Positions 1-2,105 of a stretch of 64,000 bases of DNA are shown one piece after another. The translations under genes were made by a program, and so were the position numbers. Source of the DNA: Renibacterium sp. (GTDB lineage: Bacteria > Actinomycetota > Actinomycetes > Actinomycetales > Micrococcaceae); contig JAFOLH010000006.1 of the NCBI GenBank assembly GCA_017419405.1, positions 186,001-250,000 of the forward strand, read 5' to 3'. Positions within the stretch are counted from its first letter, which is position 1. Every line of letters starts with the position of its first letter. The notes beneath the pieces were generated by a model. The model had not been told where the DNA came from, ran no database searches, and worked only from the letters and a program-made list of their open reading frames with translations.

Positions 1-987
1 ACCTCCTGCACCCCCGACCCAGAAGCCGCCGCCAACCTCTGGCACAACTTCCTCGACACCACCTTCAACGGCCAAACCGAGCTCATCCAATACATGCAAC
101 GACTCTCCGGATACTCCCTCGTCGGCGAAGTCCGAGACCACATCCTCCCCTTCGTCTACGGCTCCGGCGGCAACGGCAAATCCGTCTTCCTCGACACCAT
201 GATCGCCACCCTCGGCGAATACGCCACCAGCTCGCCCAACGGCTTCCTCATGGCCAGCCACTACCCCGCCCACACCACCGAAATCGCAAGGCTCAAAGGC
301 GCCCGATTCGTCGTCTGCAACGAGGTCAACGAATCCGACCGATTCGACGAAGCCAAAGTGAAATCCCTCACCGGCGGCGACACCCTCACCGCCCGATTCA
401 TGCGCAAAGACGACTTCACCTTCACCCCCACCCACCACCTCTGGCTAGCCGGCAACTTCCAGCCCTCCGTCGAATCCGGCGGCGACTCCTTCTGGCGCAG
501 ACTCCGCCTCATCCCCTTCACCCACACCGTCCCGAAACAAGACCAAATCGAAGGGCTCAAAGAAACCCTCGCCGCCCAACACGGACCCGCCGTCCTCGCC
601 TGGGCCATCCAAGGAGCCGCCGACTACGCCGCCCACGGCCTCCAAGAACCCGACACCGTCACCGTCGCCACCACCGACTACGCCGCCTCCACCGACACCG
701 TCGGCCGCTTCATCGACGAAGAATGCACCATCACCCCCAACTACTACCCCGGCCTCCCAGCAACCGCAATGACCGCCGTCCGGGCCGCCTACGAACGCTG
801 GTGCTCGGACAACGGAGAAACCCCGCTCAGCCCCCGCAGCCTCACCACCCAGCTCAACCGGCACGGCGTCGCCACCGGTGCAAAAGTTCCCAAAGGACCG
901 AAAGGCACCCGACTATATGGCGGCATCTCGATCCGCTCGAACCAGCCCGAGGCCGACCTCTTCGACGGCGACCGGGGTGGCTACTGA
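1..987 (+). CDS. Phage/plasmid primase-helicase, P4 family (C-terminal part, start outside window)
   Basis: Open from the first base, so the N-terminal primase half is missing; 328 codons are visible. The helicase part is a superfamily 3 / D5-type ATPase: Walker A GSGGNGKS at about visible residues 54-61, an acidic strand with VVCNEVNE about 50 residues later, then LWLAGNFQP (sensor Asn) and FWRRLRLIPF (arginine finger). The C-terminus looks like the usual DNA-binding winged-helix extension of this family. It would unwind and prime phage DNA at the origin. The iteron cluster directly downstream supports that role. Confidence 0.93.
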   Translation, partial: TSCTPDPEAAANLWHNFLDTTFNGQTELIQYMQRLSGYSLVGEVRDHILPFVYGSGGNGKSVFLDTMIATLGEYATSSPNGFLMASHYPAHTTEIARLKGARFVVCNEVNESDRFDEAKVKSLTGGDTLTARFMRKDDFTFTPTHHLWLAGNFQPSVESGGDSFWRRLRLIPFTHTVPKQDQIEGLKETLAAQHGPAVLAWAIQGAADYAAHGLQEPDTVTVATTDYAASTDTVGRFIDEECTITPNYYPGLPATAMTAVRAAYERWCSDNGETPLSPRSLTTQLNRHGVATGAKVPKGPKGTRLYGGISIRSNQPEADLFDGDRGGY

Positions 988-1294
988 TGCGCGGGGTGGC
1001 ACACTTCCACACCTCGGCCACCCAGTGTGCCACCCCGTGGGTGGCACAAGTGGCACATTTTCAAGACAACGAAATCGGACCACGATACGAAGCGTTTCAG
1101 CAGGTCAGCGCAATTAGTTACCCGTTCGTTATCTTTGGAAATTGTGCCACCTTTGCCACTTGTGCCACCCAAAACACGGGATGGGGTGGCACATGTGGCA
1201 CAACCTTCTATGTTCGACGCTACGCGGGCGCGTACACGCAGGCGCGCAGCCGGATAAACAAACCATGTGCCACCTTTGCCACCCCGGGGCCGAA
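988..1294. repeat. Iteron cluster, candidate phage replication origin
   Basis: This gene-free stretch holds eleven 7-bp units of GTGGCAC or its complement GTGCCAC (two are TTGCCAC), at 996, 1027, 1041, 1050, 1144, 1153, 1162, 1186, 1195, 1267 and 1276. Within a group the units repeat every 9 bp, and the groups alternate in orientation. Between 1057 and 1143 the DNA is clearly richer in A and T than its surroundings, as expected of an unwinding element. P4-family primases bind iterons at their own origin, so an origin is the best inference. Reading frames through it give Cys-His-rich repeats and are not convincing genes. Confidence 0.6.
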
Positions 1295-1759
1295 ATGACC
1301 CAGTCAACGCTCTTCCCAACACCCAGACCACGAAGCGCCCGCGAGCGCTGGCTCGACCAACTCCCCGACTGGTTAATCCTCACCATCGAAAACCAAAACC
1401 AACGCCTCGGCCCCTACGCCCACCTCGCCGGCTGCCCCCGCTGCCACCAACCAGTCCTGAAAGCCCTCGACAACCGCTGGGACCACCTATGCGACGCCAA
1501 AGTCGACCTAACGCTCCTCACGAACGCCGACGAACTCCAAGCCCTCCTCGCCGGCAGAACAACCCACACCATCGAAAAAGGAGTCACCGGCATCACCATC
1601 ACCGAACGCGACAAAACAGCCATCCAAAAAAAGCCAGCCAACCAATCACTCCACCCCGTCGCCCCACAACACCGCTGCAATGAACACCTCGGTTACCCGA
1701 TCCCCTGGGAACACCTCTTCCCCCGACCAAAGGAAGCCACCAATGAACCCCCATTCTGA
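1295..1759 (+). CDS. Phage hypothetical protein with Cys-rich (zinc-ribbon-like) centre
   Basis: 154 residues. The frame is open further upstream, but only through the GTGCCAC repeats, so the ATG after them is preferred. A CPRCH pair near residue 45 and later Cys and His residues (HLC, HRCNEH) suggest metal binding. The protein overlaps the next gene by 17 bp, so the two are probably co-translated. Codons are strongly C-ending, as in the primase gene. Similar small zinc-ribbon proteins are common in the early regions of actinophages; the function is unknown to me. Confidence 0.7.
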   Translation: MTQSTLFPTPRPRSARERWLDQLPDWLILTIENQNQRLGPYAHLAGCPRCHQPVLKALDNRWDHLCDAKVDLTLLTNADELQALLAGRTTHTIEKGVTGITITERDKTAIQKKPANQSLHPVAPQHRCNEHLGYPIPWEHLFPRPKEATNEPPF

Positions 1760-2105
1760 AATCAAAATCCCCGCACCCTGCGGATGGATAAATTCAAACC
1801 AGCGCCTCCACCGAATGCAGATCGCCAAGCTCACGAAAACCTGGCGCGAAGCCGCAAAAAACGCCGCCAAGACCATCACCCCAGCAAAAACACCCGCCAG
1901 AGTCACCGCCACCATCTGGAAACCACACGCCGGCCGCTACGACCCCGGCAACCTCTACCCCACCGCCAAAGCAATCCTCGACGGCCTCGTCGACGCCGGA
2001 ATCTTTCCCGACGACGACCACAAACACATCATCGGCCCAGACATGCGCCACGGAGGCAAGGGCCCAGCGCTAATCGTCATCCAAATCCAGGAGGTAGACC
2101 TGTGA
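1743..2105 (+). CDS. RusA-like Holliday junction resolvase
   Basis: 120 residues, normal for RusA-type endonucleases. The family hallmarks are present: an N-terminal basic part (NQRLHRMQIAKLTKTWRE), then DPGNLYPTAKAILDGL with the conserved Asp and Asn, and GIFPDDD with the acidic pair that binds catalytic Mg2+. These enzymes resolve branched phage DNA before packaging. The ATG at 1743 was chosen because a GGAAG ribosome site lies just before it and the RusA fold starts soon after. The stop overlaps the next GTG start by four bases. Confidence 0.8.
   Translation: MNPHSEIKIPAPCGWINSNQRLHRMQIAKLTKTWREAAKNAAKTITPAKTPARVTATIWKPHAGRYDPGNLYPTAKAILDGLVDAGIFPDDDHKHIIGPDMRHGGKGPALIVIQIQEVDL

Follow-up and report, generated by a model that had tools for sequence, protein, structure and literature searches.

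A candidate lytic replication origin of alternating iterons behind the primase-helicase gene of a Micrococcaceae prophage, with words that vary with the predicted wing of the primase

The closest described counterparts of the locus reported here are the crr origin of P4 and the origins of the SaPI and PICI satellites. In P4, the alpha protein combines a helicase with a C-terminal winged-helix origin-binding domain, and crr, directly 3' of alpha, carries 8-bp iterons of the word GGTGAACA, paired at a 9-bp step and in opposed orientation; a second iteron site lies 4.5 kb away, and a terminator is annotated between alpha and crr. The iterons of lambda ori bind the phage initiator and sit in a translated frame, which is that of the initiator gene O itself. 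In the Pri-Rep systems of SaPIs and PICIs, the origin is immediately 3' of the initiator gene and comprises two sets of iterons that flank an AT-rich stretch, and the iterons differ between elements and are recognized by the C-terminal domain (PMC6092414 and PMC7581432). The C-terminal domain of SaPI Rep acts on iterons directly downstream of its gene (PMC7581432), and a PICI rep-ori segment sustains a plasmid (PMC6092414). ORF904 of pRN1 unites a Prim-Pol type primase, an SF3 helicase, and a winged helix, and its required origin is again directly 3' of the gene (PMC4234260). Among the mycobacteriophages, the replication systems for lytic growth are not well characterized (PMC7157519).

Here we describe an iteron array behind a primase-helicase gene in the 64,000-nucleotide stretch of DNA that was analyzed (the window). 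The array belongs to a Micrococcaceae prophage in which genes for head and packaging proteins are present as well; SaPIs and PICIs, in contrast, are satellites and not complete prophages. A divergent repressor, an exonuclease, and a topoisomerase-like protein are encoded upstream of the primase, and the genes downstream of it include those of a RusA-like resolvase, the large subunit of a terminase, and a major head protein (Pfam/PHROG). The primase gene begins 1,476 bp before the window (full gene, G000:C2:184525-186987), and its product, the only D5_N protein in the genome, has Pfam matches to PF09250 Prim-Pol (E 3e-14), PF08706 D5_N (E 1.9e-34), PF19263 DUF5906, and, weakly, PF03288, together with profile matches to the solved primase-helicases 8iqh, 7ola, and 8apl. 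A D5/SF3-type helicase fused to a primase, or next to one, is characteristic of the D5/SF3 self-loading initiators. The preliminary description of this DNA, made from its letters, had assigned the neighboring gene to the P4 alpha family; this holds for the D5_N helicase and for a predicted P4-like C-terminal fold, but not for the N-terminus, which is Prim-Pol, no P4-type primase model being found by Pfam. ORF904 shares this Prim-Pol, SF3 helicase, and winged-helix composition, as well as the position directly 3' of the gene, but has a stem-loop where this locus has iterons. The features of the region are listed in Table 1.

Table 1. Features at and around the candidate origin (positions within the window)
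Feature	Position	Strand	Basis
Primase-helicase gene, 3' part (last 328 of 820 aa)	1..987	+	Pfam, PHROG DNA polymerase/primase
C-terminal winged-helix (putative origin-binding) domain, residues 700-820	622..984	+	AlphaFold2 model
ORF, 103 codons, spanning the whole candidate origin	987..1298	+	Kept open in most relatives
Iteron GTGGCAC	996..1002	+	Exact word match
Iteron GTGGCAC	1027..1033	-	Exact word match
Iteron pair, 9-bp step (1041, 1050)	1041..1056	+	Exact word match
AT-richer gap, possible melting region	1057..1143	.	GC 0.46 at 1060-1139
Three iterons at 9-bp steps (1144, 1153, and 1162; one mismatch in that at 1153)	1144..1168	-	Word match
Core module, left pair (1186, 1195)	1186..1201	+	Convergent pair-of-pairs in relatives
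Spacer of the core module; contains the alternating purine-pyrimidine tract GCGCGTACACGCA (1228-1240)	1202..1266	.	Run in relatives' spacers
Core module, right pair (1267, 1276 with one mismatch)	1267..1282	-	Word match
Gene, 154 aa, function not assigned; start homologous to that in L078 and in Arthrobacter phages	1295..1759	+	Weak PHROG matches
RusA-like Holliday junction resolvase	1743..2105	+	phrog_34, E 3e-21

The array holds nine exact GTGGCAC/GTGCCAC units (996+, 1027-, 1041+, 1050+, 1144-, 1162-, 1186+, 1195+, and 1267-) and two with one mismatch (TTGCCAC as read on the + strand, at 1153 and 1276), which gives the eleven units in about 300 bp reported previously, spanning 996 to 1282; there is also a weaker GGCCAC unit at 1016. 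Nine exact units in 300 bp compare with a maximum of 3 and a mean of 1.3 when the whole window is shuffled 300 times under a dinucleotide model. As had also been noted, steps within groups are 9 bp and orientation alternates from group to group. The iterons start 9 bp and end 295 bp 3' of the primase stop, and GC content drops between iteron sets to 0.46 (1060-1139), against 0.61-0.69 in the flanks; no switch in GC skew was seen around the array. Iterons directly 3' of an initiator gene, in sets that flank an AT-rich region, are features of the P4 crr and SaPI/PICI kind, to which the candidate origin belongs by its layout; its place and arrangement are ordinary for that kind. The word GTGGCAC differs from that of P4, which had suggested a new recognition sequence, but both fall within a degenerate GGTG..CA family.

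To place the array among related phages, we searched with an alignment of seven primases, which yielded 139 distinct primases; scans of genomes and viral contigs with the single primase protein gave no matches. Of the 107 closer primases, mostly actinobacterial, 75 are followed on the 3' side by a significant array, one that exceeds each of 30 shuffles, and the words differ among them; 72 of these 75 loci have words in both orientations and 66 have steps of 7-12 bp. Exact 7-mers repeat at lag 9 in 76/130 pooled downstream regions, versus 34 inside the primases and 6 in shuffled sequence, and AT content in the relatives' downstream regions, averaged over 66 loci, rises to 0.42-0.46. The Arthrobacter phages have AGTGACAC arrays in the same position as in the window, Gordonia phage GMA4 has an GGTGCCGCA array behind its primase, and Mycobacterium phage MarkPhew has AGCACAGAT; a common frame, (A/G)GTG(A/C/G)C and then letters that vary, runs through the loci. 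Arrays in like position beside the primase are widespread, but the unit itself, which the preliminary description had proposed to seek in related prophages, gives way to many different words. Homologous primases with no iterons nearby, which the same description had named as contrary to its reading, occur in part: Shambre1 and the Microbacterium group (L026, L031, L121, L122, L128, and similar) have no recognizable array nearby, and about 30% of the closer homologues have no significant array adjoining the gene, some of them showing one on inspection. Distant relatives with shorter primase-helicases (L369, L370, L372, L373, and L380) carry minimal arrays of about two convergent pairs ~60 bp apart. 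We note that three loci of Luteimicrobium album (L053, L054, and L055, all on the chromosome contig NZ_BSUK01000001.1) have identical match figures, and represent either three copies of one primase region or an assembly artefact.

Most of these loci have one core in common. Two tandem pairs of words face one another across a spacer with a median length of 59 bp in 55/64 loci; randomizing the orientation of groups gives 32.5 on average and never more than 42. A layout of the form >> << > << was also considered and dropped, as it fits 7/64 loci. In the window, the conserved core corresponds to 1186-1201 and 1267-1282 with the spacer between them, and not to the AT-richer gap at 1057-1143 to which attention had been drawn, even though that gap is real. 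Alternating purine-pyrimidine runs of at least 10 nt, such as TACGTGCGCGCACGCGTA, are present in 47/55 spacers, and runs of at least 11 nt in 52/66 origin regions versus 21.7 in shuffled ones. The tract at 1228-1240 and those of the relatives are CG-rich; Z-DNA, a cruciform, or a priming site are possible roles. P4 differs in this spacer, as it does in the Prim-Pol N-terminus and the run-through ORF (see below), and the convergent pairs around a ~59-bp purine-pyrimidine spacer look to be a new feature.

The AlphaFold2 model of the C-terminal domain has a mean pLDDT of 78.9, with values of 88-94 for the larger part of the winged helix, and a wing loop at about residues 781-798 that includes K787-G...K793-G-T-R796. 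As a predicted fold, it would provide the C-terminal winged-helix origin-binding domain expected of this kind of initiator, and its best structural matches in the Foldseek list are the DNA-binding domains of RFX5 (Z 9.8) and RFX1 (Z 8.8) and the P4 origin-binding domain 1ka8 (Z 6.9). RFX1 contacts DNA mainly through its wing, and an RFX1-like reading fits the association between word and wing in these primases described below. The closest match by sequence is a profile match to the tail of ASFV C962R (E 5e-6), and the ASFV primase tail has been described as resembling the P4 domain and RFX1 (PMC10516667).

Comparison of sequences across the loci indicates that the word varies with the C-terminal winged helix, and above all with its wing. 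Measured against helicase-core columns of like entropy, the strongest partner of word position 5 is residue 787 (z 5.2), that of positions 7-8 is residue 796 (z 4.3-4.8), and those of positions 1-2 are residues 793-794 (z 2.5-8.0), all of which lie in the wing loop; the words of L142, L122, L106, L051, L154, L028, and L010 aligned poorly and were left out of these tests. Partial Mantel correlations of word with protein distances, given the helicase core, were 0.29 for the wing (p 0.001), 0.13 for the recognition helix, and 0.10 for helices 1-2. A KGxxGxR wing goes with GTGGC in 7/7 loci, versus 2/56 of the others (Fisher p 6.5e-8, a value that ignores kinship), and both exceptions with G at that word position have related wings and an altered neighboring base. 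On the helicase tree, the trait turns up in scattered places, with at least six changes in the wing and eight in the word letter, and an independent-pairs comparison gave only five pairs, too few for significance, of which three agree, none disagree, and two show no difference.

The wing rule was derived on the same 70 loci, and the tests outside them are few, but four loci outside the set (L078, L227, L152, and L167) agree with it; L227 was sampled afterwards, and L152 and L167 came from loci already sampled. For L078, the nearest relative, the rule predicted GTGGC, and an array with GTGGC was then found 1.9 kb 3' of the primase, ahead of the homologous next gene, with nothing directly behind the primase. 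Additional genes or sequence lie between primase and origin in L078 (6488-8298) and in phage RootBeer (L007:4915-5193), and an origin can evidently be displaced from its primase. No array is visible at three other KGxxGxR loci (L008, L133, and L253), including Shambre1 (L008/L387), where the whole genome was searched, and the array of L089 is weak; a sample of distant genomes held no new KGxxGxR locus. Since the word changes in step with a loop of the primase, it should be in part predictable from the protein. The wing-word correspondence would amount to a partly predictive protein-DNA code, with many natural initiator-origin pairs sharing a single layout with differing words.

We infer that the array is very probably the lytic origin of the prophage, with words bound by the winged helix of its own primase mainly through the wing, in convergent pairs and within a run-through frame. 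The earlier proposal of a candidate origin recognized by the C-terminal domain of the adjacent primase-helicase gains support from the arrays of the 75/107 relatives, the word-wing association, the modeled fold, and the layout shared with P4 crr and SaPI/PICI. A plausible mechanism is that the winged helix binds the GTGGCAC words largely via its K-G-x-x-G-x-R wing, in the manner of RFX, and that helicase rings, probably loaded at the convergent word pairs, face each other around the spacer, which would then melt and be primed by the fused Prim-Pol domain. Because word and wing change together, each phage would have a private initiator-origin pair. What emerges is a computationally proposed candidate origin, of the P4/SaPI kind, for a large group of actinobacterial phages.

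Alternatively, the words could be operators through which the primase or a repressor controls transcription of the downstream genes, and not the start of replication; the genes on either side of them apparently form one operon, and alternating sites would suit DNA looping. We consider this unlikely, as the words vary with the wing of the primase itself, and convergent pairs around a spacer are the layout of P4 crr and of the PICI origins (PMC6092414), although autoregulation is possible as a side effect of origin words. A somewhat less probable alternative is that the origin is recognized as a stem-loop, as has been proposed for the pRN1-type primase-helicases, and that the words are incidental. 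In pRN1, a stem-loop of ~100 nt located 3' of orf904 serves as the origin, and an origin of this type has also been suggested for phages whose domains follow the same order (PMC4234260); inverted word pairs with arms of 14-25 nt are present in the array, and inverted words and spacers could form cruciforms. Nonetheless, the identity of the word follows the wing, as expected of a protein that binds duplex DNA by its sequence, and divergent words share one layout. Binding of the words by the primase winged helix is the reading that we retain.

The candidate origin is also spanned in its entirety by an open reading frame. Its ATG (987-989) overlaps the primase stop (985-987) and its TGA (1296-1298) overlaps the next ATG (1295-1297), and a frame running from on or next to the primase stop to next to the following start is found in 41/59 loci, with the exact 4-nt overlap in 33. 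The median distance to the first stop is 257 nt in this frame versus 57 and 79 in the other two. That the repeats encode a repetitive small protein, with the array a codon by-product, would agree with these overlaps and with the openness of the frame in most relatives, with 9-bp steps that preserve the frame, and with the annotation of the ORF as a gene in Arthrobacter phages. However, in contrast to the primase and the next gene, substitutions are spread evenly over codon positions (0.35/0.31/0.34, versus 0.21/0.17/0.62 in the primase), synonymous and nonsynonymous codons number 130:580, and alignments between related origins do not keep the frame. Both strands carry words, whose steps vary among loci (9-12 bp). 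A conserved protein encoded in the array is rejected on the even substitutions and the out-of-frame alignment, and the small-protein explanation as a whole is very unlikely. Translation with codon-level conservation, which the preliminary description had held up as a reading contrary to an origin, is therefore borne out only as to the open frame. Least probable of all is that a protein other than the primase binds the array as a centromere (parS) or packaging site. Although clustered inverted and direct repeats occur at such sites too, the position of the array is fixed behind the primase and its words vary with the primase wing.

Since the frame is open and its codons are not conserved, it is the frame rather than the protein that seems to be kept, and ribosomes probably cross the candidate origin, with translation running on from the end of the primase gene into the following one. 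This would probably keep the downstream genes translated and expressed, and the covered transcript shielded from termination. As at lambda ori, the iterons would then sit in a translated frame, although here in a separate, unconserved ORF behind the initiator gene. An origin inside a run-through ORF without protein conservation looks new, and raises the question as to whether translation across it is needed for replication or for downstream expression. We regard as evenly balanced the stronger proposition that specificity resides mainly in an RFX-like wing, making the word predictable from the primase, and that the origin is translated through in an ORF kept by selection with a protein under no visible constraint. 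In a limited search of open-licence literature, we found no report of the wing-word link, the purine-pyrimidine spacer, or the run-through frame, and the excerpts of the SaPI/PICI papers (PMC6092414 and PMC7581432) mention neither a wing-word correspondence nor an open frame across the origin.

Two minor observations concern annotation and gene content. The hypothetical-protein genes L004:4987-5328, L005:4987-5328, and L006:4984-5325 of Arthrobacter phages correspond to the run-through ORF and, from their sequences, probably do not encode functional proteins. Downstream of the resolvase, a + strand gene at 2102-2854 (PHROG 908) has a G-rich sense strand amid C-rich neighbors, and looks like a recently acquired module.
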